NCBI GenBank assembly: GCA_905160935.1 | Contig: CAJHZI010000697.1 | Coordinates: 688,001-752,000 of the forward strand | Reading direction: 5' to 3' | Length of the DNA stretch: 64,000 nucleotides | Origin: Enchytraeus crypticus | Lineage: Eukaryota > Annelida > Clitellata > Enchytraeida > Enchytraeidae | In this document: in pieces, positions 40,426 through 63,506 of the stretch | Position numbering within the stretch: position 1 is the stretch's first letter | Layout of the letters: every line of letters begins with the position of its first letter | Notes under the pieces: model-generated | What the model was told of the DNA's origin: nothing | Databases searched by the model: none | What the model saw: the letters and a program-made list of their open reading frames with translations, nothing else | Program-made: the position numbers and the translations under genes

Positions 40426-40754
40426 TAGTACAACTTGCATACAATATTAGCCCACAATACAATGGTAGTCTTGTATGCTGTAATGGGATTCAAACTCCGT
40501 TAAAGGACGCAGACTTCAGCCTAAATGTAAACTCAAAATCCACTGTTAGGTTCCTTTATAAAATTAGTATCTCATGGTCCAATAAGCTTAGAAGCAAATT
40601 ATGACTTTCCGTCAGATCATTTTACCCAATGACTATTATTATATTAGTAGCTTCAATCTAATTGTTTTAGCGGTTACTGCATCGTTGTCTTATTCAAGAG
40701 TAGGCTATATTATATAGAATAATTTTCACAATCAATCGTTTGACATTGTTTCAG

Positions 40755-40843
40755 AAAAAGGGGCTTTGATGATCTACGGTTGTCCAAACGAAGCAGATAC
40801 ACAATGAACGAGGATGGCGAGACAAGCGATCAAGGAAAGAGAG
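40755..40843 (+). other. dve: Predicted first coding exon of dve, with upstream ATG
   Basis: Acceptor TTGTTTCAG before 40755 and strong donor GTGAGT at 40844. ATG at 40804 opens [13 protein letters not shown] and leaves phase 1, exactly what exon 46604 needs. A 12-codon upstream frame (ATG at 40769) ends in a TGA that overlaps the main ATG (ATGA, 40804-40807). The main frame is also open back to 40756 (RGFDDLRLSKRSRYT), so the exon may instead be internal with an earlier start. Confidence 0.6.
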
Positions 40844-42808
40844 GTGAGTCAAGTGCCACAATAAGAGTTAAATAACCTTCATATTCTGAAAATCCACTTA
40901 GACATGCGTTTAAATGAAGGCTTAAATATTGAAGGCTTAACGAGTCGCTTGCAGATAACATAGCCTTCACAGAGCGAAATTGACGTTGAATACTTGATTG
41001 ACAAAACTAATAAATCATTGCGGTTTATGATAATAAGCACACACAAACACATATTATAGTGATATGATCAATTATGTTGATATCTATCACTTTTAATACC
41101 ATATGTTTCAACTGTTAGGAAATTTAGTATTTTTTCCTTATAACCAGTCCAGTTCATGTCCGAGATTTTACTCTCAGATCACCGCGGCTGGGATTTGAGC
41201 CCACGAGGGTTCAATTCACCTCAGGGTCTGTCATTTTGAAACTTCATGACGTTATCTACACCTCTAACCATTGCGCTATTGAGACATTGTAAAATCTACA
41301 AGACATATAAATACAAAATAGATAAACATGTAAACTTTGAATGTAAATGGCTACGCCGTTACCAAAGAAATATAGTTTGCCAAGTCCTAAATAATATTGT
41401 GAAATGGCTAAATAAACCCTGCCGACCCCTGATCTAAACCGACCATAGTGATCTCACTCTGGTGAACTTCTTTTCAGACCAGAAGTGTATAACTCGCCCA
41501 GGCTCAGCTAAAAGAATTCAGAGCCTGCAGTATGTAACGTCACTAGATTTCACGCTAAGATGTGAGCTCACCTGGCTAGGTGCATTTAAGTTATGCTGCT
41601 TATGCAATAATGTGCATGTGGTTATATGTATGTAAATTAATAAATCAGTCTCCGACAGCATATAGCAGCACTCACAAAGACTTGGTAGGTTATTAGCGCT
41701 CTCGCCAGCAGAAAGTAATCACGTTTACCTAGGTTTGGAACATTTCTGTACTAGCTTTCTTTTTTCTCGTACAAGATTCTATTAATAGGCCTAATTAAAT
41801 AAATCACTCCTACCTAACATTAAAAGAAATAAAAAAATCCAGTGGAATGTTCTGACTACAGAACAATAAGTATCATATCGAACGGATTAAAATCGTATTA
41901 CAATACTAAACGAAGGCATTCAATCCAAGGCAGAAACGATATTAAATTTTTATTTAGAAAAGGATGCGGTACGGGAGAAGCTAGTGAGGTAATGCGAGTC
42001 ATATGTGAACGCAGCTTAGAACAGGGAAATGACTTTTTTATATGGTTTATAGATTTTGAGAAAGCTTTTGACAGGGTAACTGAGTAGCTTAAAACGGGTG
42101 TCACGAAAAGCGCCGTCTTCAATTGGTTGGTTTGGAGTTTGAATTAATTTGATATCCTGGAACTTATCCACAATGTTTTCTCAGAGAACTAAATTAAAAG
42201 TTAACTAAACACTAAAGTGCATATAATGGAGCCGCTAAAATGTTGACTTCCTTTGACGGAAGATAACATGGACGTGATTAAAATAAATAATTTTAATTAT
42301 ATTTCCAAGTCCTACTTCAAGCATTAATTTTTTTACTTATAAATTAAAAACTTCTTCCCTATTTAATATTTGATATTATTATCAAATTAACTTTTAATAT
42401 TTAAGTTTGACAGAGAACTTGATGAGTGTCCGATTCATCTTAAAAATAATTTAATGACGAAAATTGACAGTTAAAAAATATATTGTTGTATTGGACGGAA
42501 TTTCATGTCCTCTGTTCTATCGGTGCATATTTGAATTGGGAACACCTAATAAAATTTAATGTATAAATTTAATTTTCAAATATTAAATGGTAACGAAATA
42601 TAAATAACACAGCAAAAACGCTGTTACATGTAATTTCAATTATCAATCAATAAAATATCCCGTATCCACGCTATCATTTAATAATAATTTATAATAATTT
42701 ATCATTTAATAATTTTCTCGCAATTTCCTCTATTTCATGAATGTACATGTACAAGTACATGTATAGTTGGATCAAATAATGCGTGCTCTGTCTCTCTAAT
42801 CTATCTTC

Positions 42809-42847
<39 letters not shown>

Positions 42848-43660
42848 CTCCTCTCTCCTTCTTCCTGCCCTTATCATTTTAATATACTTTTAATTGTCCA
42901 ACTCGGTTTCTAACCGAAACTGTGATTGCCGCCACTAACAAGATACTTCAAACTGATGATCTAACTCACTCACTCTCTCTCTCTCTCTCTCTCTCTTTCT
43001 ATGAATTTCTTACAAATCACTGTTACACTTTAGAAGTATAAGGGTTTCCAACATTGACTCACACATTCGAGCGCGATGAGGTCTCATTATGAGGCCGCTT
43101 TGTGAAAATATTCTCCCTACAGGAGCAGTGGTGGCAGGCACACAAAGATTACGTTGAAAGAGAGGCCTTAGAGCAGCAAATTTCTCAAGTTCATATAGAG
43201 TCTTTATTGAAGTTTCACTACTCTCAAAGTCAGGATGATTAATTTTATCAATGTTGTTTGCCAACTGTTGTTGAATGCTAGTAGCCGATTCAGAATGCTA
43301 TACAAGAGCAATTTTGGCCTTGGCCTTGATCAAGGCCAAGGCCAAGGCAAGGGTGCAAGGCCAAGGCCAAGGCCAGAACTCGCAAGGCCAAGGTCAAGGC
43401 CGAGGCTTAGTGGCCTTAAGGCCGGCTCAAGGCCAAGGCCAAGGCCTAACATCACTGCCTTTCTCTCTCACTTTCTCTGTCACTTTCTCTGTCTCTATGT
43501 CTCACTCTCTTTCTCTTTATCTTTCTTTTTTTTTCTCTCTCTCTCTCTGTCTCTCAATCTCTCTCTGTCTCTCTCTCTGTTTTGTCTCTCTCTGTCTCTC
43601 TCTGTCTCTCTCTCTCCTTCTCTCTCTGTCTCTGTCTCTCTTGCTCTCTTTCTCTGTCTT

Positions 43661-43693
<33 letters not shown>

Positions 43694-43710
43694 GTCACTT
43701 TCTCTCTCTC

Positions 43711-43797
<87 letters not shown>

Positions 43798-43804
43798 TTC
43801 TCTC

Positions 43805-43858
<54 letters not shown>

Positions 43859-44611
43859 AACAACTGCAGAAGCCATTGATTGGTCCGGGGTCACGTGAAC
43901 GCATAGCGATGGAGCGGGGATCGACTGATCATCGGTTAATCCTTCATTGAAGATTGAGTAATCCGTGTCAGGTCCGGGATTAACTACGTAATTCTCTGCA
44001 AGGACTTAAGCTCTACAAAAACACTAGCCATGGAAGTGCTAATAAGACTTATTCTCGTACATGTACATGTATATAGAGACTTCTATGAAATACTGGAAGC
44101 CATTAGAAGGAAAGACATTAAAGATAAATTTGAACTGGAGAATAAGAGGTTCACAAACATATACTCGTACATCATTCTAGAGGAGCATGATGATAAGAAA
44201 GTTTTAAGTCATTTTCTTCCGTATTTTATATTCAGAAGCCAACTGGAAATATTCATAGCTCGAAATTGTCTAGTTTAACGGCTTTGCCATATGAAAGTCT
44301 TTAAAATAGTTTTAAAAATATTAAGTTTAAAACAATTATTTAAAAAAAACGTTTATTAAAATTTTGGCTTAAAATATTTTTTGGACACATTAAAAGATAT
44401 AATTTCGATATAGCTGGCTAAGAGACATACGCTAGTACTTTTCTTTGAATGCTAATATTGAGGAAATTTTAATCAAGTTTTATCAATCCAATTAGCTCAG
44501 ATCAGTTTTATATTTTTAATGCATTCGGGTTCTCTCTCCAGAAGAGTGTCAACAACAATGGAAAATTACATTTTCGTTAGCTAAACTATATTATGTTTAC
44601 GAAAGCAAAAA

Positions 44612-44650
<39 letters not shown>

Positions 44651-44697
44651 CAGTATATATACAAAATTTATTTATAAAGAAATATAATATATATATT

Positions 44698-44746
<49 letters not shown>

Positions 44747-46080
44747 ATATACACAGAATTTAGTTTCTATGCATTATTTAAAAATAATATATTTGAAATA
44801 GACGGCATTTGAATAAAAACCCTAGTTAACTAGATTTGACAATAATTTTAAAATTTCAGACAACAACATTCAGTAAAGTAAACGACAACAAATAGCCCAA
44901 TGCATTCATGACGACATTTTTAACTCTTTCGATTTAGCTGGCGCGTCAGCTGCTCATTACGTTTAATAACTCAGCCGATATCTACAGGCTTCCAGTCCGA
45001 TCTTCAGCTTTGACTTATAGCTGAACGTAAAGCCAAATCTAAGAGCGCATTCTAGTTAAGCGGCAACGCTAAGCCGGGTCCTGACCGCTCACCCCGCAGT
45101 TTTATCATCGCCGGCCAGGACCCAGGGCTGATCGTAGGGTCGCCTACGGAGAGCGCATAATCCCGTCTAAATGGCATGATTATCCGGTAGTTGGACGATC
45201 AAGGGTCGACAGAGAATTCGATACGAGGATGAGGACGGATTTAACCGAGGTTTGACACGGGCGGAGGCCTTGGCCCCCTATCAACCCGGTCAGGGTGCCC
45301 CTGGTCCCGGTTATCCTCTCTAAACTGTTGCTCTGCTACTCTGCAGCTTCATTCGCCGGCTGAAAAGTTACGAACTTCGCAGATCAGTCAAAATCTCCTC
45401 AAATTCAATGGAAGATCCAAGACACAACTTTCTTAGGGAAGTTTGCTTTGTTGTAAAGAGCCCAGCAATCATGAAAACCAAATACTGGTTACCGATATAT
45501 CGTTGTTAGTTCAAGAGTAAATTGATAGACATTTAAAAAGAATCCTAACTGTTTATTTCTCGTACGGTTTCTCACTTAAAGTTTCTCACTTAAATTTTCG
45601 CACTTAAGGTTTCTCTCTTAAGGTTTCTCACAAAGTTTTTCTAACTTTTGTGAAATCCTTCAGTAGATTGAACCTAATTGCTCGATAAATGACAACGAAA
45701 TGAAGGCTACTATTGAAAGTACCTTATACATAATTTAGCACATATAAATACGACTAGAGGGAATGGGACCAGAAGTATCCAAAATGAAGTGACCGGTTTC
45801 TAGATATTCCACTGAACGCTGATTCCGGAGAATAAAGATTTGATCGTGAAATTATGGTGTGGAGGGGGTTGGAGTGATGGGACGCGGATTGGGCGATGGA
45901 TTGGCAGTAAAAGACGGATCAGGAGCGGATCAAGCGCAGGTTTGCAGCGGTTAAGCCGTTCCTTTGACGGGATTTTCTGACGTGAAATTTGCAATTAAAT
46001 TGCTGAGCAAAAAGTCTGTCGTTAGTCCTCCCGGCGTCAACCGGATAAAACGTCTGTCTGCTGTTTGGTTTATGTATATA

Positions 46081-46140
<60 letters not shown>

Positions 46141-46166
46141 GATATATAAATATATCTGCAAACCAA

Positions 46167-46216
<50 letters not shown>

Positions 46217-46222
46217 ATATTA

Positions 46223-46274
<52 letters not shown>

Positions 46275-46322
46275 TGTGCCTTAAACAACCATCTGTGGTT
46301 CCTGACCCAGTGTGCCGTTATG

Positions 46323-46368
<46 letters not shown>

Positions 46369-47916
46369 ATATAATATATATTCATATATATGCATATATA
46401 TATATGCATGTATATATATATATAAATATATATATTTAAATATATGGGCGTCGCATATTTATTTATAGGAATAGTTCAGAAAAGAGGTAATTGAAGGAAG
46501 AATGGTGACTTGGAATGCTGGATAATTTGATAGTATATATTGATATTGATCGAGCGATTAATGATTATTTCACTAAACTATTCACTTGCGGTGTTCACTA
46601 CAGTCACCGCATCAAGACATGATCTTCTAGCTCTGCGCTGCGTTGTGTCCAAGAGAACTCTGGACAACAACGGTGACAGCAACAACAGGGAGGACACCGC
46701 TACGGATACAGAGGATTGGGAGACGATGGTAGAGGTTCCGGTAGAACTTCCCTTCATGGACCTGGTCAGAGCGGCACTGCTTGGACTCGGATACCCGGGC
46801 TCTGATGTTTTACTGTCAAAAGGTTTGAACTGATTGAGTAGAAAATTATGTTTTCATTTTTGAATTGATGGAGTAGCAAATAATTTTTTCATTTTTTGAA
46901 CTGATAGAGTAGCAAAAAAATTTCATTATTGAACTGATAGAGTAGCAAATATTTTTTTCATTGACCCCGCAATATTGTAAGATTTAAATTCTTTTGATTT
47001 AGCAAGCTTAACATTTTGTTCATTAGAGTGTTAAGATAATAATTGAGTTCACCAGGATCAGCCATACTCCCATATGCTAGCATTGTGCCCAAATCAATCG
47101 ATCCAATAATCAATCAATGAAATGACCAATCAATAGCTTATTCAACTAATTGATAAATTAGCAATCCATTAATCTAATGATTGGATTGGTAAACTGTGTT
47201 TCAGAATTAGGGTATTTTGAACCTCTGTTTTCCTCAAAGTTGCGATTTTACACAATGGTGTTCGATGTTGACATTGACGTCAGTAGCAGTCAAACTGTTG
47301 TTGTTGTAGATAATATTTGTAGCCATAACTCTAGCTAAAAGTAATGTTGATTGCAGCCAGTAGAAAAAGCTGGTAAAGCTAAGGTTAACGTCTGTTTCCT
47401 CACTCGAAAGCGATGTCAGTGACGGCGAGCCCAGGTTTTGAACCCCGCACATACTGATCCGCGGTCGAGTATCTTACCGACAATATGTTTCGTTAGAATA
47501 CGAATCTGATACATCGATTTGAAGCCGTACATTTTATATTTATTTGGTCCAATATTTTAGTAATCTAGCAAAGAATTCTAATAGAGTCTATTTTAAATAT
47601 TCTAAATCATCTAATATTTCAGTATAGTAATCTAGTATAGTTTAGTATAGCTGCTATAACTAACACCGTAACCTCTACAGTTGTGATATGAACAGTTTTC
47701 TTTGTCTGCAGGTTATCTGTTGGTAAACAACTGGCGCCGTCTAGCTGTGGATGACGTCACAGATAACGTCAGAGCTACCATTGGTGACGTATTGAGTCAT
47801 GTGACATCGGCTATTACTCTGCACATTATACTTGATAGGTAGGTATTCTGTTGTACTATCTTATGCTTACAATAAATTATTCGATTAATATATTGATTAT
47901 TATTATTATATTAATA

Positions 47917-47951
<35 letters not shown>

Positions 47952-48266
47952 GATCAGAATTCTCTCGGTACTTTAGTAAAGGATCAATCCGAAATTAACG
48001 ACAGTGAGTTATTGTGAGGATGTTAAGGACGATGAAATATTTTTCCTTGGATTAAATAGTAATTAATCCATCTTACTGAAGAAGGCAACGGTAAACCACC
48101 CCCGAAGCCATATTTTTTCCCATGCAGTAGGCTACATAAGGTATGGTTACGGCATAGACATTGTGAAGGGATTAACTTGTTGATCTAAAGAGTGCTCCTA
48201 TGGAGCAAGAAAACAGACTTTTAGTATGCATATGTACATTGAACCTGCCACTTGGCAGTGCGCTGA

Positions 48267-48306
<40 letters not shown>

Positions 48307-48319
48307 GGAGGGAGAAAGG

Positions 48320-48353
<34 letters not shown>

Positions 48354-51199
48354 TAAGGACGGGTGAGCTTTAGATTTGAACCCTACATCTTTTGATGCGC
48401 AAATGAGAACAGTACTGATCAAAGTTATGAAATATGTTAGAATTATTATCTGAAGAATGAACAAGTTTTTTAAGCAAAATAAATTTTTAGCCCAATAGTG
48501 TACGGAGGATTCGGTCCTCAGCTCTTTATGTACTATAAATTCAATATCAACCCAATTAACACAAATTTTTCAATAAACTATGCTAATCGGAAAATTAAAA
48601 CTATCGATTAAAGGACGATATGTTAGTTATGGGTAAACAGGATAGTTTTCACAGGGAATGACGCCCCTTCCCAGTAAATATTAGTCGAAGCTGAAGAAGG
48701 CACAGGGACCCACCTCGTCATAAGCAGAATCCACCAAGAATAATGATATATCTAAAGGAATGTTGTAGATGCTTTAATTAAAGATCCACTCATATGTGAC
48801 GTGAAGAGGAAAGCGGAATATAAAGAATAGTGGAGGCGCTATATACCATGGACCTGCCAGTAGGCAGTGCACTAACAGAGAGAGAGAGAGAGAGAGAGAT
48901 GTTATTTATACGCTTAGATGTTATTTAGTATACTAGCACCAAGTTGGCAATGTAACTACTGCTTTAACTTACAAGTAAAATTGACGGATGTACGGCAGTG
49001 AGTGACTGAGTTACAGTTAAAGCCATTGAACAATCCTACCAAGTAGCCAATTGAAAAGTTTGCGTGAAATTCTCAACCTCACTAAAGCGATTTTTAGAAT
49101 TAAAGCTGAAGCAGTTTAACGTCAGTGTCAGCGCCTGGAAGTATTTCTGAAGGAAGAACCTCAATATTGAATTGCAGTGTATTAAACTCCTGACGTTTAA
49201 CCTTTGTGCCTCAGTGGAGTTGCCAATAGGCCTAGATGAATATCTGCTGCTGGTGTTGAAATTGCCGTTGTTTATTGCTGTGGGTTTGATTCAGTAGTAA
49301 AAGGAAAGTAATACATGCTCAGACAAATGACAAAAACAACATTGAGTGGTTGAAAGTGCTAACTAGACTGAAATACAAACATATATGCACAGGTACATGA
49401 GGTAACTATGATCACCTACAATGTATGATCAGTTCCATAGACAGTTGAAGGCCCACCTTTTCCATCTCTCCTTCCAAACCAACGTCCATGAGTTGAGACC
49501 AGCTCGTAAACCTCCTTTTCTTTAATTCCCTTAATCTTTGGACTGATTTTCTGGATTTTGGAATTTGCACCGTTTTTGGACCTTCTTTTTGCTCACTGGC
49601 TTGGATTTATCTCAATAGTGCTCGATGTTTTCATTGATGACTGTAGCACTCTAATTGTTGTTGTTGATGTGACTAAGTTAGATAATAAATGAAATGTAAT
49701 CTGAGGCAGTGCAGATCATATGAGGCATGTAGCCCAACTGCAGAGATCATGCTACTAAATTCCTAGCACTCTAAATCATCTTACTGTTATTTGATAAGAT
49801 GCTTCTAAGATCTAAGAATAGGCATTATATTAGTTTCCTAACAATTGATTTTAGTAGCAATATTGACAATACTAGCATCTGTAGTATTATCAGAATGCTG
49901 CTACTCGTAGATGTATTATGCGATAGCTGCAATTATAATAATAATAACACACATTATAGTGAAATGATCAACTATGTTGATATCTTTCACTTTTTATACC
50001 ACATGTTATAACCGTTAGGCAACTTAGTCCATTTGCCGTGTAGCCAGTCCAGTGAATGTCCGAGATTTTACTCTCAGATCAGCGCGGCTGGGATTCGAAA
50101 CCACGAGGGTGCAATTCCCCTCAGGGTCTGTCACTTAAAACTTCATGACGTTATCTACACCTTTACCCATTGCGCTATTGAGACATTCAATTACAGTATA
50201 GCAACAAAAACTGCAAATACGAGCTATAATGGCATGTTAGCAATTCTTACACTTGTAGAAATTGTTGCATAACTAACAATAACTATGTCAACTGAAGTAA
50301 CTTTTGAAGCTGCAGCAGCTGTAGTAGCTGTAACAGCTTCGAAGGTACTGAAGATTTAGCAGTTGTAGCAGCTGTTAAAACTCATTTTCTGCAGACAAGT
50401 GGGCAGCTGTTTTAGCGCATTTGTTGCTAAGACGTAGCAGCTGCATCAACTGCCGAACCTCATTTGCTGCTGAGATGTTTTAGATGTATGTAGTTATGGA
50501 TAGAGATTAGCCGACAGAGGGCAGCTGTTGAAAGCTCTAATTCTGATCAGGTCTATCCCACAAGCTGGATCACACTTGATTCAAATCCTATATAATCCTC
50601 AGCCAATCCCGTCACCATATTGCTTCTTACGCTTCTTATTCCATGTCTTATCCCTTCACTCTCTTCTCTCCGCAGTCCTTCTGCAACTCCACTTCTCTCT
50701 TCGTTCTCTTAGTCTGATTCGCCTTGCTTCTCCACTTGATGTTAATGTCTTCACTTTTTTATTTTTGCTCCTATAAGCATTCTTTAAACTTAATTCTGAA
50801 ACAATTATGCGTTTCATTTAAATTAGTTCAATATACTGTATATATTTTTTATTTATCCCCATTATTGTTAAACTGCACTTTGTTACAACAGATGGCAAAT
50901 TTATGATTTGGCATATTACTTTTACCTTACGCAGAGTAATGGCTATAATATTGTTATTTGTTTTTTAGCTTATCAGCTATATAGTAAAATTTAAAAGCAG
51001 TCTTTAATGTTAGCTTCTTTATATAGATTTGCTATGTTCCTACTGTTATTATATTTAGTAAGTCCTAACAATAATTTGTTACTTGCATTCATTTTTATTT
51101 ATTTATTATTAATTGCTTAATTGCTTTTAGGCGTATTGTAGTTGAAACATACGCATAATTTGAATTTAATTACTACTTTTGTATACTTACCTTTTCTAG

Positions 51200-51296
<97 letters not shown>

Positions 51297-54200
51297 TTGT
51301 ACAAGTTTGTAGCATAGCCTATAATTGAAAATAGAAATTCAGATATAGCCTGAATTTAACATTAAGCGGTAGACGTAACACTCGCAAATCCCCTACGTCT
51401 TAGATCCCTAATCCCATAACTTCAATCTCCTATCTGCGCACTTGTCGGTGAATGCTTAAATCCTCTCGCTTTTACACACACCGTGATTTCTATTTCCGCT
51501 TTACTCCTCTAAGAACCCGGATGTGACTTTTCATTTCAATGGTCGTCTATTTAAATCGCTCGATGGAATGAGTTTAAGAATTAGCAGAAAATTCTTGCGG
51601 TTGCGAGAATAATGCGACCGAATAATTGCAGTATAATAATTGCTGGAAATTCATCTAGATAAAGTATTCATTAAGATTAAGCTTCAGAATTTAATCAGAT
51701 TCAAAATATAATCAAAAGTTTTCAATATCTTTAAATTAAATTCATTTGATAAATGTGAAATTTAGGAAATTTATCTTAATTTCAGAAATGGCAAATTCAT
51801 TTTTATATAAGTTAGCGTTATTGGCAAACATGGAAACAATAGATTATAAATGTGTCTCGATCAGTTTTGAATACCGTTGAGCAGTAGGTCGGCCTTTCGC
51901 TTCTCAATCTGACCATCAGGAGAATGAGAGCCGAATGCTAATTCAATCTCTTCTTCACTACGTCCCTGACATCATCCCTGGATTAGGAAACGGACGTTAA
52001 ACCTTTATTATTATTACTACCTCGTTCTTTTAATTATAAAATTAAGTACGCAGGTAAACGCTGCTGAATAAAGTATGAGTATGGCTTGTGAGTCTTCCGA
52101 ATCTGCAGTAAAGTGGCGACCTTCTTCAGTGCACTGCCGAGTGGCAGGTTCATGGTACATATTCATACTCAAAGTCTGTTTTCTCGCTTCATATGAGCAC
52201 TCCTTAGATCAACAAGTTAATCCCTTCACAAAGTCCATGCCTTATCCATGCCTTATGTAGACTATAGCTTGGGAAAAATATGGCTTTTGAGGTGGTTTCC
52301 CGTTGCCTTCCTCAGTTAGGTGGATTAATTATCATTTAATCCTGGGGAAAATATTTCATGGTGAGGTGGGTCCCCTCTTGCCATCCTCAGCTCCTGCCTT
52401 TAGTCGTCTCTTAAACATGCGGCAGATTGTCTGCGACTGCCCTATTCTGCAGTGGTCCAACCACACCCGAGCACAACAAGTGGGAGTGGCAACCTATGCG
52501 ACGGACGGATAAATCTTAATAGGTAGCGATACGATTTAGCAATTGATTACGAGTAAAACTACTAATTAATTAATTACTAGTCAAGCCATTCAGTATTGCG
52601 CATAACAAGAATTCAGTATGTCAGTATTTACTAGATTCAAAAAAATTACTGTTTTCATGAACTTTTCGGATTTCAAGTCATTGTGCATTCTTTGGCATTA
52701 CTATTAAACGTTGATTTACAAGCATGTAATACAAGGATTTCAAATCAAGCTATAGCCTTACAAACTATAACAATAGTTTTTTCTCACAGAAAAGTTAACT
52801 TTAAGATTCCTTTCTTGAATCTTCTTCCATTTTTTGATTTAGCGCATTAAATAGAACTGGTTGTATTTTTTAGATTTTAAACTGATTTTATTAGCAGTAA
52901 CAATAAAATCATTGCGCGGCAAGTTTCTTTAGACACGGGTAGGCTAATATAAGAAACATCAAACCACTTCAAACTTTTTTATTTCTATTTTATTTCTACT
53001 CTTTTCTCATCGCTAATTTTCTTTGGTCTAGGAAATTGGCGCGGAATCTTAATGCATTTGTTACACTTGATCTAAGGTCAAGACTCTACTGGGTGTTTCA
53101 TTCACTTGCTAAGCTCTTGGTTCGTTAATTTCCGTAAATCGCTGAACGGGTCTTTCCCCCCCCCCCCCCCCCCCCCCCCCACTCTTCCCAGTTTTCTCTC
53201 CTAGCTCATCTTAGACTTTATCCTGGAAGATTAGCCGAGCCTCGTATAGAATTCATTGAAAACTTTTCCACGTCACAGCAGCGTATTCCTACAATCACAC
53301 TAGAGTGACCTCTACGTCCAGTCATTCCAGTAACTAACCACTACGCAGTTTACTCCACTGTAATGGACAATAATTGTCAACTATAATTTTCATTGATTCG
53401 AGAGAAAAGCCTCGGACATTATTCATATTACCAGTCCTTTGAATTCCCCAGATTTTCTCTTTGATTACCCTACCAGGATTTGATACTGTGACCTTTGGAA
53501 CCTCCATTTAACTTACTATGATGTTACCTGACGTACCTAAGCACTGAGCACTGTAGACATTCAAATGAGCTGCTTTCAGAATGCATCCAGGATTTGGTAA
53601 AGATCATGCAAAATACTATCCCCTAAAACCTATGAGTCATTTCATCACATCTTCATGTATAATGTAAGATTCGTGGTACATTTGAAATGAACATTTTTTC
53701 GCAGTTGAACTCGTACTTCACAATTAGATACACTTTTCTAAACTTGGTTCTGTATGTAACAGTTATAGGCCCTATATGGATTTCAGATCCATTTATATCA
53801 GAAAGGTATTTAAAGTTTTAATTTAAAATGTTAAAATTTAAAATTAGAGATTTTAAATTTCTCTAGCGCACTTATAAGTGTAATGTAGATTTTATTCTGT
53901 AATATAGACTTTATTTCACCTACACATGGTAGATTCAAATAAATAATTATTCTTAATGATTCTCCTAGTGTGTAATATTAATAATTTATCTTATTTATGA
54001 ATCAGTTTATAAATATATTCTTCACGCGCTAGTTATCATTATACATGTATAATAGACCAATATTTTTAATATTATAAATTTTTCTATTATCCACATATTT
54101 CATAAAGATGCGCAATATTTATTTACGTATCGTTTTGGCCGTTTATTCACACTTAAGTTGTGATATTATACTCTCGGATGCGGACAACTGGTTTTGCATC

Positions 54201-57200
54201 GACTTCAAAACCCTTGTCTATTGTCCATGATTATTCATTGATGTGCAATAGATCGGTGACTCTATAGGCTTTTACTCTCTTTCAAAGACGATGAGAATTT
54301 CTGACAACGGAAACTTAAACTTTTTGTACGACTATTTAAGTGCACAAAAACCTGTGAATAGGCCCGTGCTTTTATTCTGCACATGTACAGAGAGATAAAT
54401 GTCAATGTAAGCGGGGCTGGTGACATGATGGCAGAATTTAAGAGGGGCTAGTGACGCTAGGGCTGAGGTGTCGCCTCTAGTCGATCAATAGGCAGACGAA
54501 TACATTCATCGTTCTATACTTTTATAAAGATCCACATAGGCAAATAGACAAGCGTATAAACAAATTAACAGATATATGTCCCCCGTGTTTGCTCGGGTGT
54601 GGTTAGACGACTGCAGAATAGGACAACTGCAAACAATCTGCTGGGTGTCCGTAAGAGGCGACTAAGGCAGGAGCTGAGAAGCTGGGTGTCCGTAAGAGGC
54701 GACTAAGGCAGGAGCTGAGAATGGCAAGAGGGGACCCACCTCACCATGAAATATCTTCCCCCAGAATTAAATGGTAATTAATCCATCTACCGGAGGAAGG
54801 CAACATGAAACCATCTCAGAAGCCATACTTTTCCCAAGCTATAGGCTACATAAGGTATGGCTAAGGCATAGACTTTGTGAAGGGATTAACTTGTTGATCT
54901 AAGGAGTGCTCTCATGAAGCGAGAAAGCAGACTTTGAGTATGAATATGTGCCTTGAACCTGCCACTCGGCAGTGCACTGAAGAGAGAGAGAGAGAGATGA
55001 GCAAGTAGGCAGAAATGCAGTACAAGCAAGAAGAAGAAAATGATTTAGTAATACGAAAGGACAGCACAATGAGAGAAGGATGGGTAAGGCGACACGACTC
55101 GACATATGCTTATAGGATTGACTGTGTAGGATAATTTCCCTTTAACCGACTCGTTTAGATTTAAAGGGTTTAGTTCACTGATCCGCTAATACCGGCTCTC
55201 TTCACTTAATTAATTCTTTACGCCACTTCCTCCACCCTGAATTACAATCCGCTACCACCTTCTTCACACTAGCAAGCCTCGATCGTCGTCCAGTGGTGAA
55301 TTCAGTCCGCTCTTTTCAAGGGGCTGATGTCTCGGTTTCAATAGAAACCAGCCCCTATTGCTATATATTACTATTGCTATATATTCCTAGGTACTGGGCG
55401 GCACCAGTAGCAGCTTTACAACTGAGTTTGCAGGATTGTTATTTTCAGATATTCATTTGCTGGTGTAGATGTCAGTTGATTAACTAAACCAACTAACTTA
55501 ACGTCAACTAACTAAACCAACTAAATTTATTTTTATAACTCCAGGTATTATCCTAATCTGCTGATCTGCACAGGAATAAGAAAAGGGTTCCAACAGATGA
55601 GAGTTGCAGATTTGTGTTTGTCCCACCAGTAGGATCATAGTTCAAAATGGAAAACTATTTTTAAATACATTCTGCTAATATAGATTTTAAATTGTACATT
55701 TACTCTCTTCCTGCCCGTAGTCGATTTGGTTGCACACTTTATCTATAAGCAATAGGCCACCGGTTTGAAATCGTCGCTGACAAATACATTTGTTCAACTT
55801 ATGGTACGAACGTCAATCTTAGTTTCTATGCCCTACTATTTCATGAAGCAAATGCGCACCATCATTTTTTGAAACTTCGGGAGATATTCCCCACGTCTCT
55901 CAGATTTGTCACAGTCTCAATCATTCCAAAAATTCCGCGATCTCGTCAAGACTTATCGCATCCAACACCTCAGTCAATCCCTGAGTGGAGTGAGTGGAGT
56001 TACAGGATGCGGGGGTTAATCCCGAGCGTATGTGATTGTCATGCAGACTTCCAGTGATTTAGATCTCACTCCAAAACCTCATATGGCAAGGAAGAATACC
56101 TTCGTATCCAATCCTCTAAAATCATTTAGTGGCGGCAACTTCTGTCTCTCAGTGCCCTGAATATTGGCAATTTGGCAGGTTCATAGCATATAGATAGTCA
56201 TATCTTAGGCTTTTTCATATTCTCATACGAATATGTTTTCAACTATCTAACACCACAAGGTTCTGTCTTCGCCTAATTGCGCTCCTTCTGAATCTAACAA
56301 TCAGTATTGCAAACATATATTTGTTTATGAAAACTTTTACGTGCTTTTGAAAGGGAAATAATATTATATTGGAATTCAAATTTCCACGGGAGAGTTCTAT
56401 GAACGCTGACTCAATTGGTTACCTGATTTTGGACGTAAAAGTTCGTTTAAAATCTTATTTTGTCACGTAGGTCTACAATGCTAGCTTTTTTCTTTCGTAA
56501 TGTTTTATGAATGAGGCAGCGGAGAAAAAATTAAAACCTAAACAGATTGGTTGGAAAGGAAACTGCAATAGGGAATGTAAGCGCAATTCAAAAACTAGAA
56601 AAGAACTGAAATGAAGGCTCTTTTATTTTATGTAGGCGGAATGTAGGCGGAATTTCTTGAAATGAGTTTTGTTACTTTTGCATAGACGAATTATACGATA
56701 AATGCAATTTGTAAAATATTAACAAATTAAATAGCGCGTAATGTCCTAGTTTAACGGCATATGACATACCGCACATGTTTACAGACTCAAGTTTCCGATT
56801 TTCCACTACATAGACATACATGTACATGTACGTGGTCACTACATGTTCATAGCGCAAATAACTGTCAGTGAACTTTTACTTTTATTTTAAAGTTAACTCA
56901 AGTGTACGTATGGCATCCAAAGGACTGTTAATATGATTATGAAAGCGCTTGGCCTCTACTATGTAACCTTATTCATTTAAAATCCATTTCTGTCGTTTTT
57001 CTTTATCTGTTATTTTGCTGCTTAACTGTTATACTCATTGTTGCACTGTTCTATCTGCCACTGTAAGATTGTATTGAAATAAAGCAATAGATTAATTAAG
57101 TATTTTAAAATAAATTTCTATTCTAGGGATAGGTAAACTTTCTAAATAGCCTGGGATTTGAACACAGGATAGGTACGATTCGATGCCAGTGAGTTTTTTT

Positions 57201-58163
57201 CAAACTTCGTTGTTTTCGTTCGGTGTTCTATCCAAAATTCCTACAAGTAGTTTAATTAAATGAATGTTTAAATAACTGAATGAATATTTCATTTGTTTCT
57301 CGTTTGGTTAGGTTTCAAACTATTCACTGGCTAAAGTTAATCACGGTTTTTGTTGCTCTGTGTTGATTCCGAAATCTCGACTTATCGAAATGCGTCAAGA
57401 GACGGTATTATGGAGTTTCATTGCGATTAAAACGTTTCTAATTTTACGCTACAGTTGACTTATGGAGTTAAGAGAGGAAATTAAATTGTAATTGTTATTG
57501 TAAATCTTGGAGATTATGCTAATGTCATATTAAAATAAGTTATATGACAGAAAAGCTGAGAGAAACAGAGAAAGAGAAATAAAAAGAGAATGAGAGAGAG
57601 CAAAAGAAGAAAGAAAATATCATTTTAATTTTATTAATTTTCTCTCTCTCGTTCTATTATTTTTACATTACATTTTTGCGTTCTACTATTATTATTTTAT
57701 TATCTTTTTAAACTTCTGTGGCTCAGTCTCATCGTGAAGCTTTATGATCTTCAACTAAAATAAATTCCTGAGTTGATGAAATAAGTTTTGAGCGGTTTTG
57801 GTCATCAACGACTTTAAACAATTCGACATTGAACTACTAGGACTAGCGTTTTGTCACACGACGTATTAAACTATTGTAAGGCGACTAGCAGTACAATCAC
57901 AATTCATAATGATATAGCCTACGTTGTATACTCCAACATTAAATATTGGAAAAACACAATTTCATGGAAATCTTAATTGTAAGCGTATAAAAGGAGAATG
58001 TAGGGGGAAGGGGCAGAGGCAGACCGAGACAATGGCTGCTGGATAATCTAGTAGCGCATTCATATATGCAGATAAAAGCTGATTATAATGATTTAAATAG
58101 TTATATGCCATTTTCCAGCCATTAGACAATATACTGAGATAAGTATACTTTAATATATATATA

Positions 58164-58208
<45 letters not shown>

Positions 58209-61200
58209 GCATATATATATATATATGTATATATATATACAGTATATATACATATATATATACATACAGTATATATAGATAGATAGATATGTATATATAT
58301 ATCTTTATTTTGCCACTTAGGCAAACAACATTCATTGTACAGTGAAACAAAATCAAAACCAAAGAAACAAAATGCAAATACACAGTGAAAATAAAATTAA
58401 AGAAATAAAACAAAACAAATAAAACGAAATATCAGATGTGCACATCAAACCTTTCTCTACGAGATTACGCAGGAATATTCACCCTCACAAATTCTCAAAA
58501 TGAGCGTTTATATTATATTTTTATGTTTATGTTTTATAGTTTATGTTTATATTATTAGTATATTTCTATAGTTATTCTCAAGCAAAATCGTATCAGTATT
58601 AAATATATTTGCTAATCTGCGTATATCTTTCATTGCTAGATGAGTACTCAGCATTCTTAACATAATACTTACTGTTACTGAAATAGATTCTAAGAACGAC
58701 ATTACCTTTAAAGCATATATAGCATTGGTTTATATCCCGCATTGGCCTACAGTTGGCGGTGTTTTACTAAATTTTTCTCAAAATTATTTAATGTTTTGCT
58801 GATAATACAAAGTCGTTCTTTTCAAATCTTATCTTGTTACGTTATATTTCTTGATATATTCTATTGCGAGAGATAGCGCACTTAGTTTTTCTATACTTCA
58901 ATGATTGAAATTAAATGGCGTCGTGCTCGGATAGTGTATGCATGAGTGGCTACCGTGGAAGACCGTGTGTCGACAGCTTTGAATGAAACAAATTTGGTGC
59001 GGGATTTAGCGCAGTCGGTTAAGTTGGGCGTCTATAAACGAAGTTAAGCTTTGTCGAGCCCGGTTAGTACATGAATGGGTAACCACCGTGGAAGATCGAG
59101 TGTTGACAGCTTTGAATGAAAAGTTTCCTATAAATCCCCAGAGCACAGGTTCAACGTACAAATCTCAGGACGTGCTCAGCCGAAATATATCACTTCACAA
59201 ACACGAATATTTTTGCAGAATAGAACCTACCAGTCAACCGAATTCATTAAAACAATCCCGACCACACTCGTTTCAACATCAACTAATTCAATAAGTGGGA
59301 CGCACGTTAAAAAATGAAAAAATCTCAGGATGATGGAAGATTATTCTTAAATCCGCGCCGGCTGCCATCAGTGCGCCATCAAAAGGAAACGATTACTAAT
59401 TTACATGGAGAGGTAGGAGGCAATAGCGAAAACTACAAAAACAGAAGTTAAGCACGGAAAGTATTTAATACTAGTGCTTGTCATGTGTGTAATCCAACGA
59501 ACAATTATTCTGCATGTTTCTAGATACCCTTATCAACTGGACAGTATAAAGGACAAATTGCTCTCATTTCTTCTGCGTTACTCGCAGCATGTGCTCTCAA
59601 CACTGCACTGTCCTTTAGATCAGGTTAGAAATCTCGTTTTTTAGCTTTATCAAATGGCAGATTCAATGTCTAATTTTTAATCGCAATAAATCTTGATGCT
59701 CATCAAAGCACACTTCACCAATAAAAACTTTAAACACATCACCAATGTTAATTATATTTATGAATTGTTTAGATATAAAGCAGTTATACAACTATGAGTA
59801 AATAATAGAAATATTAAACTGATATCTGGTCCTATCATCATCATCAGCTTTCCTTTAATCTCACTTTAGCTGGTTGCAAGATGCGAATAGACTTTTCCAT
59901 TCGGTTTAGGAAATGCTGTAGCAATTGTGCTGGTGCCTAGGCGCTCACCAACCAAATGCCCTTTTTGACGTTGGTTTGGCTCTTGGTGTTTTGTCCTCTT
60001 TAGCTGACACGTGCAGTCCTCGATGGTCTATTCTTCAGCAACCCGGACACAACACGGGAGATGAAGTATTAATATATGCAGTATTTATTATATTAACAGT
60101 CTTAGCATATATTTCTTTAGATTACTTTCAACCTCATCTAATCATTGTCGCCATTATTCTAATCTCTTCGATATTTTCTTCATTTAGAAACTACTTACCG
60201 GTTCAATTGAACACACGTAGATACATTTAACTGTAGTATACTTTCGTCCTTCGAGTACTTAAATAAATTCTGCAGTGGTCCAGCTTTCCGGGACCATTCT
60301 GCAATATTCTATCGTTCCCGGACCATTGTGCAATATTCCAGCGTTCCCAGACCATTCTGCAATATTCTAGCGTTCTTGGACCATTGCTCTATCCATTATT
60401 TATCGTCATATCTTGATATCTTGTCCACGTTTTAAATAAGCACTTTGACGCTATCTTTTCAGCAGTCTTTCTTCGGATCAACAGTGAGCACTTGTATTCC
60501 AGCGCTTCTGTACTGGGTTAGTTTATGTCTAATTAAACTGTAAACCAGAGAGAAAACGGGCATGAATTCTAATATTTTAGTGCCTTGGACCTTTCCACCA
60601 AGCAAATCACTGAACAAACTGTATAGTTACTGCAATACTTTAAGATCTATTATTGATACACAGTAGTGTCTAAACAATCTTATTCGCAGTCACCTTCTCA
60701 TGATCATAGTATTTGTAAATATAATCGATCCAGAAACTGCAACGAATAATCTAGACACTAACATCTACACCTACATTAAGTATCATTAGAGCATCATCAT
60801 TTTCATTATTAATTGTATCATTACGTTTAGACTTAAATATGTAATTTTGTTGTCAGACGTCAATTATCTTATATTTAAAAAAGTTGTATACACAAATTGT
60901 TTCTGTATTTAGACTCAGTTACTGGGACTAACTCATGGATTTCTTAACGCATATGATTTAGACGACCTTCAAAAGAAATTCAATACCTGGTACGACAATC
61001 TTACCACCGATATGACGTCATTAATTAACGACGCAACTTATAGACCGGATTTTAGATGTGAGTCTAGTCGAGACGGTTGCCAAAGAACAGTGGCAAGGTG
61101 TCCCGCTACAGGACACCTTCCACGGAAACATGATCACTTTAATCACAGCTCCAGTGACATCAAGAAACCTGAAGGAATAAAAACCGATAGCTCCACCTAC

Positions 61201-63506
61201 CCGATAAGTGTTATAAGACACAAACCCCGCCCACGACGACGTAGTTCATCCCCATCCCCATCATCAAGCCCTTCCTGTAGATCTGTGGATTCTTGCTGTT
61301 CAATACGTTCTCGTCATCACAATTCAGCGAGTGGTGAAGCTAGAAGAACCCTCTCAACAGACATAGAGACGGACGTTAACAGGTCGGATAAAACTGCTTT
61401 GTCGGAAAGAGAACTTGGAAGTGCATGGGTGCAGAAAGCTGAGGAAGAGTTCTGCAGGATGAGGAAGGGATTTGAAGAGGATGGAGATATCAAAGCTTTT
61501 AAGACACAGCATACAGTTGCATCTCGTCAGGATTTCTGCCATTCAACTTACAATCTTTATAAGTATGTTATAATTGTTAATGTAACAAACATAACGCTCA
61601 CACACAGGCCTACATATATCATACATGCACACACATACGCACACATATATACACATATATACGTAATATTATGTACATTTATATATATATATACAAGTAT
61701 ATATGTACATTGTATATGTATGAATATGTGTGTGTGCTTGTTTGTGTATAATTTTCACAAATCGCTAAATATTACGTCAGTTAGTTGCAATATAGTATAA
61801 AAGTCAAATATTGAAATTATTAAATTCAGTTTTTATGATGTGTGTTGAATCTAAAACCTTTGAATATAATACTCTAGTATGCTAATTATTTGCATCCCTG
61901 CACTATTTCATGCATAATTTTAAACTAAATTTTGCGTGTAAGAAGTTGCTATTAGTCTAATTTCAATATCCTCAGCGACTTCTTTTATCTGATTGAAGAA
62001 TATAATTTTATTTTTGAAAGAACGGCGCAATCAATATTGTAAATATGTTCAAGCTCATAGGAAATAATGCAACATGTAAGATCTGTAAAACCATTAAAAA
62101 GTGTATATTTCGTAGCGTTTGGTTACAAGATATAAATACATAATTTTCATTTATATTTATATAGTTCGCAGATGTTATCAAACTCTCAGAAAAGCCGGAA
62201 GCGGAAACACATGGACTCGCGTCCGCGTTCCTGGAATAGCGCCGTAGATGATGCCAATCAGTCAGGATTAGACAACGACACGGACGACGAAAGAAAAAGT
62301 GTCAGATCTAGAATTACTGCCAGTATAACGTCTCCACGTGGGAGCTTAAATCTGGAGCAGATTAACGGTGTAGGGATGGAATCTAATTATAATAATCATA
62401 TGACGGGCAGATCGAATGCTGATCAATTCCATGACAATCTCGAGAAATCTTTGAAAACATTCGACGCGGCTGGATCTGGAAACCAGTCAAAAATTAGCGA
62501 AGATGTGTTTGCCAAGATGGGATACAAGGCACCGTATGGTGTATTCAATCAGTCTTTAGCTCACGAGGCAGGGATTCTGGATCTGAAATCAGGCGGATCG
62601 TCTCCTTATGAACAATCATCTTCTTCGTCAAGTACTCAGGGATCTGAAGATCAAGCCACTGATTTGAGAACAAGAACCAAGACTTCCGGAGTTTCATCAC
62701 CAAAAAATCTGGATCATTGTTCGCCAACAACGTCTTCTCGTTCTAATCGCGATGATTTTGACCATATAATGCGAACAAAGCACAACAGATCTAGCGAAAA
62801 GGAGAGCTACCACCGCGATGAAATAAGAAATGAGTCGATGGGAAAGGAAGAAAAAGAATATTCCGTTATTTCTACTTCCTCGATAAGCTATGACGTCACT
62901 AGAAGGTACAGCATGACGTCACCGCCTCTACCCTCCTCCACGGGACTGGATTCATCCGGTTACTTTATAAGTCATCACCCGTTAGCCACGCCCCCTCACA
63001 TACGTCAGTTCCAGCAGCAGCATCACGTGATGCGCCTTCAGGCAGCCATGACTCATGCGCTGAACATACGACACCAACAAAATCTCTACACACCGAACTC
63101 ATCGCAATCCGGATCATTCCAGTTTGATCCCACAGGAATAGGACTTTTTACTTCCTACAAGGACCCGATGAGTCCGGGAGAAAGTGGGTTAGGAGATAGT
63201 CCCAGCAGTGGGGATCGTCGTAAACGCAGCAGGGTTTTTATTGACCCCCTCACCGAGATACCAAGACTGGAAAGGTGGTTCCAGGAAGACACTCATCCGT
63301 CAGCTTATATGATTGAACAGTACACCGAGGAACTGAATAGATCCGTATATAGACAGAGATTTCCAGTGCTAGAGCCAAAGAACGTACAGCTTTGGTTTAA
63401 GAATCATCGCGCTAAGGTAAAGCGACAGAAATTCGAATCGTCAGCCTCGGCGTCGATGCTTTCAAATGGAGGCTCGATGCTATCAGGTAGCGACTGCGGT
63501 CATTGA
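40804..63506 (+). CDS. dve: Compass-class homeobox transcription factor (Defective proventriculus/SATB-like)
   Basis: Nuclear DNA-binding regulator. Coding exons: 40804-40843, 46604-46822, 47712-47838, 59524-59623, 60913-61562, 62165-63506. Phases agree at all five junctions and sum to 825 codons plus TGA. Residues about 20-128 form the CMP/ULD oligomerisation domain ([51 protein letters not shown]), matching the SATB N-terminus block for block. Residues about 129-195 match the SATB CUT-like domain ([33 protein letters not shown]). A Ser/Arg/His-rich, low-complexity region follows. The homeodomain (about 730-803) has [11 protein letters not shown], so residue 50 is Lys, and ten extra residues between helices 2 and 3. 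No CUT repeat is seen, which favours Dve over SATB. The N-terminal exon is the least certain: it is open upstream to the acceptor before 40755. Exon 2 could alternatively start at 46631 in the same phase. Confidence 0.87.
41055..41300 (-). mobile_element. SINE2 (tRNA-derived), near full length
   Basis: The minus strand reads CTCAATAGCGCAATGGTTAG (A box), GGGCTCAAATCCCAGCC (B box), GATCTGAGAGTAAAATCTCG and GGACTGG. It ends in an AGTGATA/TATCACT hairpin around 41058-41095. In dve intron 1. Confidence 0.85.
41301..41838. other. dve intron, nothing recognised
   Basis: No exon or known repeat; one TAGGCCTA at 41786. Confidence 0.5.
41842..42087 (+). pseudogene. Non-LTR reverse transcriptase fragment (RTE/Jockey-like)
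   Basis: [31 protein letters not shown] and [14 protein letters not shown] are RT blocks including catalytic motif A. Truncated on both sides. Confidence 0.85.
42088..42800. other. dve intron, nothing recognised
   Basis: AT-rich sequence without recognisable features up to the (CT)n runs at 42809-42850 and 42969-42996. Confidence 0.5.
43010..43264 (-). pseudogene. hAT transposase C-terminal dimerisation domain fragment
   Basis: [40 protein letters not shown]: the hAT dimerisation signature. About 84 codons remain open; the catalytic and BED-finger parts are absent. Flanked by CT microsatellites. Confidence 0.9.
43310..43450. repeat. (AAGGCC)n hexanucleotide tract
   Basis: Inverted at its left edge (TTGGCCTTGGCCTTGATCAA then AAGGCCAAGGCC), otherwise direct hexamers with interruptions. 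Confidence 0.95.
43458..43858. repeat. Compound (CT)n/(TCTCTG)n microsatellite with an (AT)n core
   Basis: 400 bp of polypyrimidine with an AT block at 43760-43793. All open frames here on both strands are low-complexity artefacts. Confidence 0.98.
43859..44612. other. dve intron; one unrecognised small open frame
   Basis: At 44030-44278 an 82-codon plus frame starts in ideal context (GCCATGG) and contains [21 protein letters not shown] recognise no family, and nothing else supports a gene. Confidence 0.3.
44613..44742. repeat. (AT)n microsatellites
   Basis: Two AT blocks separated by about 50 bp. Confidence 0.95.
45030..45335. promoter_or_regulatory. GC- and CpG-rich island in dve intron
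   Basis: Clearly richer in G+C and CpG than all neighbours (CGCCGGCCAGGACCCAGGG, GACACGGGCGGAGGCC). GGGTCCTG and CAGGACCC form an inverted pair. No open frame or known repeat. It lies 1.3 kb upstream of the CMP exon, so an alternative promoter or enhancer is possible; this is inference. Confidence 0.35.
45592..45655. repeat. ~17-bp tandem repeat, about four copies
   Basis: GTTTCTCACTTAAAG and variants. Confidence 0.85.
46068..46440. repeat. Compound (AT)n microsatellite
   Basis: Four AT blocks, two of them flanked by an inverted word (CTGTTTGGTTTATG and CAAACCAAACGGCATA). Immediately upstream of dve exon 2. Confidence 0.95.
46848..46965. repeat. ~40-bp tandem repeat, three copies
   Basis: TTGAACTGATAGAGTAGCAA followed by T/A runs, three times. 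It begins 26 bp after the dve exon 2 donor and its unit resembles the sequence across that donor (GGTTTGAACTGATTGAGTAG). Confidence 0.9.
47366..47485 (-). mobile_element. SINE1 copy
   Basis: AAAAAGCTGGTAAAGCTAAG, CACTCGAAAGCGATGTCAG, GGCGAGCCCAGGTTTTGAA, ATCCGCGGTCGAGTATC. The far head is truncated at CCGACA. Confidence 0.92.
48055..48350 (+). mobile_element. (GA)n-tailed retroposon, 5'-truncated
   Basis: AATTAATCCATCTTACTG, GGGATTAACTTGTTGATC, GAACCTGCCACTTGGCAGTG, then an extended (GA)n tail to 48353. An ATT microsatellite lies at 47905-47950. Confidence 0.9.
48720..48895 (+). mobile_element. LINE family B 3' end
   Basis: Parallels 26272-26435: [25 protein letters not shown] in translation with in-frame stops, CATGGACCTGCCAGTAGGC and (GA)n. 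Confidence 0.8.
49430..49690 (+). mobile_element. LINE family C 3' end
   Basis: Upstream part translates as [12 protein letters not shown], a LINE C-terminal motif. Then CTTTGGACTGATTTTCTGG, TCTCAATAGTGCTCGATG, TAGCACTCTAATTGTTGTTG. Confidence 0.75.
49955..50200 (-). mobile_element. SINE2, near full length
   Basis: Minus strand: CTCAATAGCGCAATGGG (A box), GGTTTCGAATCCCAGCC (B box), GATCTGAGAGTAAAATC, GTTAGG-type tail and an AGTGAAATGATCAAC/GTTGATATC hairpin end. Confidence 0.88.
50201..51195. other. dve intron, nothing recognised
   Basis: Contains GCAGCTGT-rich sequence at 50310-50450 (several CAGCTG E-box words). No coding signal. Confidence 0.45.
51199..51296. repeat. (AT)n microsatellite
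   Basis: AT dinucleotides with one short interruption. Confidence 0.97.
51957..52020 (+). mobile_element. LINE family A tail
   Basis: ACGTCCCTGACATCATCCC, GGAAACGGACGTTAAACC and (TTA)n. Severely 5'-truncated. Confidence 0.9.
52118..52490 (-). mobile_element. (GA)n-tailed retroposon, near full length without GA run
   Basis: CTTCTTCAGTGCACTGCC, GATCAACAAGTTAATCCC, CTATAGCTTGGGAAAAAT, CCCTATTCTGCAGTGGTCC, CACACCCGAGCACAAC. Confidence 0.92.
52491..53370. other. dve intron with a poly-C tract
   Basis: Unassigned except for 25 consecutive C at 53156-53180, an unusually long mononucleotide run that may also vary through sequencing error. Confidence 0.6.
53375..53570 (-). mobile_element. SINE2, old copy
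   Basis: ATTACCAGTCC, CAGGATTTGATACTGTGACC, TTTAACTTACTATGATGTTACC and a reversed A-box region; diverged relative to 49955. Confidence 0.6.
53571..54575. other. dve intron, nothing recognised
   Basis: AT-rich; no exon or repeat recognised. Confidence 0.5.
54578..55000 (+). mobile_element. (GA)n-tailed retroposon, full length with internal 41-bp duplication
   Basis: Sense copy from CCCCGTGTTTGCTCGGG to GAACCTGCCACTCGGCAGTG, CACTGAA and (GA)n at 54981-54996. A 41-bp segment starting GCTGGGTGTCCG is repeated exactly at 54640-54680 and 54681-54721. Confidence 0.93.
55001..58140. other. dve intron, largely unique sequence
   Basis: No coding exon or known repeat recognised over about 3 kb. A less AT-rich stretch at 55140-55350 contains an inverted pair (AAGGGGCTGATG with CCAGCCCCTAT) and could be a conserved element; this is unsupported. 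Confidence 0.4.
58152..58300. repeat. (AT)n / TATACA microsatellite
   Basis: AT repeats interspersed with TACATA and ACAGTA words; Tyr-Ile open frames are artefacts. Confidence 0.95.
58930..59415 (+). mobile_element. Chimeric tRNA/5S rRNA SINE, with partial duplication
   Basis: At 58998: GCGGGATTTAGCGCAGTCGG (tRNA A-box-like), then CGAAGTTAAGC, GTCGAGCCCGGTTAGTAC and ATGGGTAACCACC, which closely match the A box and C box of 5S rRNA. A partial copy of the segment ACCGTGGAAGA to TTTGAATGAA precedes it at 58950-58990. The body has a ~150-bp insertion relative to the copy at 37310. Confidence 0.82.
59828..60062 (-). mobile_element. (GAT)n-tailed retroposon, near full length
   Basis: Plus strand TCATCATCATCAGC, ATAGACTTTTCCATTCGG, GTGCCTAGGCGCTCACC, GTCCTCGATGGTCTATTC, CCCGGACACAACACGGGAG. 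A 101-codon open frame across it is an artefact. Confidence 0.85.
60271..60385. repeat. 29-bp tandem repeat, about four copies
   Basis: Unit CTGCAATATTCTAGCGTTCC plus CGGACCATT. It lies between dve exons 4 and 5. Confidence 0.92.
61563..62164 (+). other. dve: Last intron of dve
   Basis: Donor GTATGT, acceptor ATATTTATATAG. Contains CACACA/TATATA-rich sequence at 61600-61735 and no other feature. The two-base carry (AA) is completed by T at 62165. Confidence 0.85.
62165..63506 (+). other. dve: Homeodomain exon of dve
   Basis: Terminal exon. It begins with a basic nuclear-localisation-like stretch (KSRKRKH), continues through Ser/Asp-rich linker and a His/Gln patch, and ends with homeodomain plus 23 residues. 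Helix 1 region IPRLERWFQ, helix 2 [11 protein letters not shown], insertion between LN and VQLWF of 15 residues where ordinary homeodomains have five, and recognition helix [14 protein letters not shown]. The single intact reading frame of 447 codons shows the gene is under selection. Confidence 0.9.

Follow-up and report, generated by a model that had tools for sequence, protein, structure and literature searches.

We conclude that the homeobox gene predicted in the 64,000-nucleotide stretch of Enchytraeus crypticus DNA analysed here (the window, on contig C601) is very probably a CMP (Dve-type) gene, one of at least four paralogues in this genome, which came from a duplicated two-homeodomain gene and lost one of the two homeodomains, HD-N. 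This result corrects the view that a Dve gene with a single homeodomain is in the ancestral state, and indicates that homeodomain number in the CMP family changes after gene duplication.

The predicted gene and its domains

The predicted gene spans window positions 40804–63506 on the plus strand and has six exons separated by five GT-AG introns, with phases that agree at every junction. The spliced frame is unbroken over 825 residues and ends in a TGA stop at 63504–63506. The earlier note had proposed five phase-matched junctions; all are GT-AG and fall in this single frame, and the gene is confirmed as a predicted six-exon model. Exon 1 (40804–40843), the first coding exon in the model, contributes 13 residues and ends in phase 1. 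It is the least certain, as the frame upstream of its ATG is open to an acceptor-like site near 40754. An acceptor-like site of phase 1 was also seen by eye ahead of the ULD in each of the three paralogous loci described below (C370, C328, and C211). An upstream exon is therefore expected for the window gene, and its true start may lie further 5′ than 40804. Intron 1 also contains, at 43010–43297 on the minus strand, a match to the hAT transposase C-terminal dimerisation region (Pfam E 2.5e-5) and, at 41833–42087, a reverse-transcriptase-like fragment (Pfam RVT_1 E 0.039, under the cut-off). Elsewhere in the window, an open frame at 16668–16961 resembles a short-chain dehydrogenase exon (Pfam E 4.6e-7, for a query with one residue mistyped).

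Exon 2 (46604–46822) carries the first part of the CMP/ULD domain, from about 46624, and exon 3 (47712–47838) the second part, to about 47830. Using the Pfam ULD profile, we matched exon 2 alone over profile positions 2–69 (E 7.9e-8), exon 3 alone over positions 71–109 (E 6.5e-8), and the spliced product over positions 2–108 of 109 (E 3e-20), in agreement with the N-terminal CMP/ULD domain proposed earlier. Because the two halves of the profile match separately and without overlap, the splice between exons 2 and 3 is strongly checked. The SATB1 ULD-CUTL structure 4q2j matches residues 54–190 of the spliced product (E 4.3e-9), and the ULD-only structure 3tuo also matches (E 3e-7). The window ULD is diverged: within a set of five rows, it shares most identity with SATB1 (36% over 75 columns) rather than with the C370 paralogue. 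A tree of the same five rows joins the window and C370 ULDs weakly and places those of C211 and C328 weakly with SATB1 (84/86 in both cases, with long-branch warnings). The KWN triad of SATB1 reads NWR in the window ULD, resembling the “inverted” triad order described for ambulacrarian sequences in part of PMC3784565. The other SATB1 tetramer-interface residues named there, Glu, Phe, and His, are Thr, Met, and Ser in the window protein, at places as inferred in our alignment. Since these interface residues are not kept, SATB1-like tetramers are not assured for the window protein.

The CUT-like domain is split between exon 4 (59524–59623, first half), placed by shuffle comparison with C370, and exon 5 (60913–61562), which holds the second half to about 60996 and then linker, and was placed by its alignment with 4q2j and by a phase-0 acceptor that, judged by eye, falls at the corresponding point of the domain in C370 and C211. 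The window CUT-like sequence gave no match to Pfam CUTL, and SATB1 was absent from the nine matches of a PDB search with this part alone, so the claim of a CUT-like domain rests on the paralogue route. None of 2000 shuffles reached the score of the window sequence against the CUT-like sequence of C370, and none of 2000 reached that of C370 against SATB1. The direct likeness of the window sequence to SATB1 is weak (9 of 2000 shuffles reached the score). By way of the paralogue, the domain named in the earlier note is secure. We read only the second half of the domain in C211 and only the first in C328; the former clears the Pfam CUTL cut-off by itself (E 1e-10, 42.3 bits vs 25), and the C328 half alone (E 0.081) and the C370 sequence (E 0.032) fall below it. 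CUT repeats gave no match in the 825-residue product. In a whole-genome CUT search with 15 candidates scored, none of the 12 matches lay on C601, C370, C211, or C328, and the proposed lack of CUT repeats in the window gene therefore holds. These comparisons show a predicted CUT-like domain in the annelid CMP proteins, as a shared feature that is not SATB-specific; the sections of two reviews that bear on this place the domain only in SATB (PMC10515288, PMC4901127). Finding it in annelid CMP is relevant to the proposed origin of vertebrate SATB from CMP.

Exon 6 (62165–63506), defined by Pfam and the spliced frame, contains further linker, the homeodomain, and the stop. The homeodomain at 63213–63437 (Pfam E 1.4e-8) has Lys at position 50 and a ten-residue insertion separating helices 2 and 3, and is closest to the HD-C homeodomain of C370. 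In the numbering assigned in this analysis, HD16 and W48 are 42 residues apart, versus 32 in one Hox control. The same +10 is found in all four paralogue homeodomains and is zero in the Hox control. An AlphaFold2 single-sequence model of moderate confidence (mean pLDDT 73.6, pTM 0.56) has its main helices at residues 18–26, 32–44, and 56–77 of the modelled piece and sets the insertion, which includes a short helical turn at 47–50, between the second and third of these. Helix 3 reads WFKN in the spliced product, with Trp at position 48 and Lys at position 50. Both the insertion and the Lys thus agree with the earlier reading. They are ordinary for the Dve/CMP family and already described: parts of PMC3784565, PMC10515288, and PMC4901127 give the family two homeodomains, a ten-residue insertion, and K50, the last also in Table 1 of PMC4901127. 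The earlier note had given Dve as a K50 protein at TAATCC sites, which agrees with the account in PMC8259978 of a K50 repressor acting via K50 (TAATCC) motifs in fly photoreceptors. With CMP/ULD, K50, and the ten-residue insertion all present and CUT repeats absent, the assignment to the Dve/CMP type stands.

CMP paralogues in the genome

A search of the whole genome with the window homeodomain found five places: itself, two in C370, and one each in C211 and C386. The C370 homeodomains are HD-C (C370:3353925–3354149), which is 79% identical to the window homeodomain, and HD-N (C370:3352506–3352700), which is 42% identical. Both lie in a single 721-residue open frame that starts at the CUT-like junction and is preceded by two ULD exons and one CUT-like exon. 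The other two matches are in C211 (E 0.14) and C386 (E 7.4), and the latter, a CUT-bearing locus, was left out of the CMP count. The ULD family across the whole genome consists of eight matches, all over the cut-off, with two each in C370, C328, C211, and C601; in a control search, 1 of 14 control genomes (Bacillus subtilis) gave a match, which was below the cut-off. A query with the C211 homeodomain returned seven places in the same four loci, with C328 at 68%. The genome therefore has at least four CMP loci, namely the window gene, C370, C211, and C328. Those at C211:539659–549124 and C328:1079386–1094126 each combine a ULD and a SATB1-like CUT-like half with one HD-N-like homeodomain, and may correspond to oyster Cmp2 or ambulacrarian CMPl. 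In oyster, Cmp1 and Cmp2 have adjacent gene numbers (PMC5322547), and a single Cmp is given for the tubeworm Spirobranchus lamarcki (PMC6118893).

We assigned junction phases in the paralogues by eye. All four loci have a phase-1 intron in the ULD, and the junction from ULD to CUT-like domain is phase 2 in both loci where it was read, the window and C370. For the intron within the CUT-like domain, both splice sites are phase 0 in the window and C370, as are the acceptor in C211 and the donor in C328. The match of these phases to the window gene is independent support for its exon model. A tandem repeat that reads QLLSYNDQLLSYNDQ on the minus strand lies in the C370 intron that splits the CUT-like domain, at about C370:3351237–3351987.

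We found no description of a four-locus CMP set with differing homeodomain content in the literature searched, which did not cover the supplementary homeobox table of the genome paper. The unusual part is the single HD-C together with a four-locus set of varying homeodomain content; the family itself is known.

Hox genes are also multiplied in this genome, on contigs C551, C540, C179, C239, C271, and C533. Among the 20 homeobox pieces read are three that we take to be Hox1-like, two Hox5-like, and three Lox2/Lox4-like. Presumed Hox1-, Hox3-, and Hox5-like genes are among the five on C551, and a presumed Lox5-like gene is also among the Hox genes of the genome. Parts of the Enchytraeus crypticus genome paper describe multiple Hox homologues and a scaffold with Hox1, Hox3, two Hox5 variants, and Hox7 (PMC8460440).

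Homeodomain number: loss or ancestral state

Using the HD-N homeodomain of C370 as a query, we obtained six matches in the whole genome: C370 HD-N, the two HD-C homeodomains, C211, C328, and a stop-broken match in C705 (E 4.1). The only place on C601 (2.04 Mb) was the known HD-C, at 751231–751422. A home-made homeodomain HMM, tblastn, and pattern searches over 284 kb (C601:598001–882000) likewise left only the known homeodomain standing. The single homeodomain seen in the earlier note, which had called for a search for a second, is thus borne out across the 2.04-Mb contig. The 540-residue window linker has no detectable remnant of HD-N (1491 of 2000 shuffles score as high). The same test, run with the window homeodomain as query, picks out HD-N in the linker of C370 (0 of 2000 shuffles reach the score). 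Elsewhere the similarity of the two linkers is weak, with 12 of 500 shuffles scoring as high.

An HD-N exon might have been missed, either as an alternative 3′ exon or through an assembly error. In sea urchin, the single Cmp/Cmpl locus yields one- and two-homeodomain proteins by way of mutually exclusive exons, as set out in part of PMC3784565, and a donor-like AAG|GTAAAG lies within the window homeodomain after 63416, one of several such sites in exon 6, where a pattern scan found five others. However, HD-N and HD-C of C370 occupy one open frame, and genome-wide queries with each gave no second match on the contig. The 284 kb around the gene contain no N, and a helix-1 pattern was unmatched there beyond the known place. 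Helix-3 patterns matched two and four other places, but all are stop-rich and lack homeodomain context, and no alternative two-homeodomain exons of the CMPl type were found at the window locus. We therefore regard a missed exon as very unlikely.

The remaining question is whether one homeodomain is a derived or an original state. The earlier note had read the window gene as a simpler, possibly ancestral layout, in which case the two-homeodomain form would be a later internal duplication, and the window, C211, and C328 genes do each have one homeodomain. This reading did not survive, since a two-homeodomain paralogue is present in the same genome and two homeodomains are described for fly Dve (PMC3299662, in agreement with the note), C. 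elegans dve-1 (PMC4448998), and sea urchin CMP (PMC3784565), and the CMP proteins of these three animals are also described with the ten-residue insertion. The single homeodomains also differ in type, HD-C in the window gene and HD-N-like in C211 and C328, which fits separate losses. A small tree with long inner branches, built from five CMP homeodomains plus three outgroups, groups C370 HD-N with C211 and C328 (99/97), and C211 with C328 (100/99). The window homeodomain and C370 HD-C fall outside this group, and no supported branch unites just those two; the pairing of the window homeodomain with C370 HD-C, its closest relative in sequence, rests on the 79% identity and the shortest path (0.24). 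Because C370 and the fly, nematode, and sea urchin proteins have two homeodomains, the one in the window gene is most simply explained by secondary loss after duplication. Parsimony favors this loss over an ancestral single-homeodomain state, which we consider highly improbable.

The loss of a domain and the divergence of the CUT-like and linker sequence could also suggest that the window gene is a decaying, functionless duplicate. Yet the 825-residue frame is intact with GT-AG splice sites, and the homeodomain has been under strong constraint since an old duplication. Of the 75 codons compared between the window and C370 HD-C homeodomains, 26 are the same, 33 carry silent differences, and 16 encode a different residue; differences fall at 40 third, 12 first, and 11 second positions. 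The corresponding dN is 0.135, and dS is not computable (returned as -1, as at saturation). The window homeodomain has thus been kept by selection, and we give a dead copy very little credence.

Possible function and comparison with known CMP and SATB proteins

SATB1 is oligomerised by its ULD domains and binds DNA through its CUT-like domain, according to part of PMC4901127. Since the SATB1 ULD oligomerises and Dve acts via K50 motifs, the window protein is expected to be a ULD-oligomerised K50 factor. It would act in the nucleus as a transcription factor, with the ULD bringing subunits together, the CUT-like domain supplying a further DNA contact, as it does in SATB1, and the K50 homeodomain recognising TAATCC-type sites; like Dve in fly photoreceptors, it would probably be a repressor. 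Because each subunit has a single homeodomain, the choice of site would lean more on oligomerisation than in the two-homeodomain paralogue. A wider reading, which we offer tentatively and think rather doubtful, is that a two-homeodomain CMP was taken apart among the paralogues, with C370 keeping both homeodomains, the window gene only HD-C (K50), and the C211/C328 pair only an HD-N-like homeodomain (Arg50), all behind like ULD/CUT-like fronts. Mixed oligomers could then combine homeodomains in trans, and the vertebrate SATB tandem could have been inherited whole from a CMP ancestor, as suggested by the ULD and CUT-like front that the paralogues share. Paralogues with differing homeodomain sets are a natural test of the role of each homeodomain.

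SATB1 and SATB2 resemble the window protein in having a ULD followed by a CUT-like domain (4q2j). However, the window protein has no CUT repeats, Trp rather than Phe at position 48, and a ten- rather than one-residue insertion, and SATB membership is ruled out on these grounds. Ambulacrarian CMPl, like the window gene, combines a CMP domain with a single homeodomain, but its K/R-rich insertion is eleven residues long rather than ten, and this length rules out CMPl identity.

Among the paralogues, C370 shares with the window gene a phase-1 ULD intron, a CUT-like domain split at a phase-0 junction, and an HD-C that is 79% identical. It differs in having HD-N about 60 residues past the CUT-like domain and one open frame to the stop, whereas in the window gene HD-N is missing and there is an additional intron at 61563–62164. 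C211 and C328 share the ULD and CUT-like exons and the ten-residue insertion. Their single homeodomain is instead HD-N-like: its helix 3 reads WWRN, which puts Arg at position 50, and, unlike that of the window gene, it is interrupted immediately ahead of W48 by a putative intron. Their CUT-like halves, as read, are also much nearer to SATB1 than those of the window gene. Finally, Dve, dve-1, and sea urchin CMP have in common with the window gene an N-terminal CMP/ULD, the absence of CUT repeats, W48, K50, and the ten-residue insertion, but carry two homeodomains where the window gene has one, of HD-C type. We therefore call the window gene a single-homeodomain derivative of the CMP/COMPASS (Dve) family rather than a canonical member.
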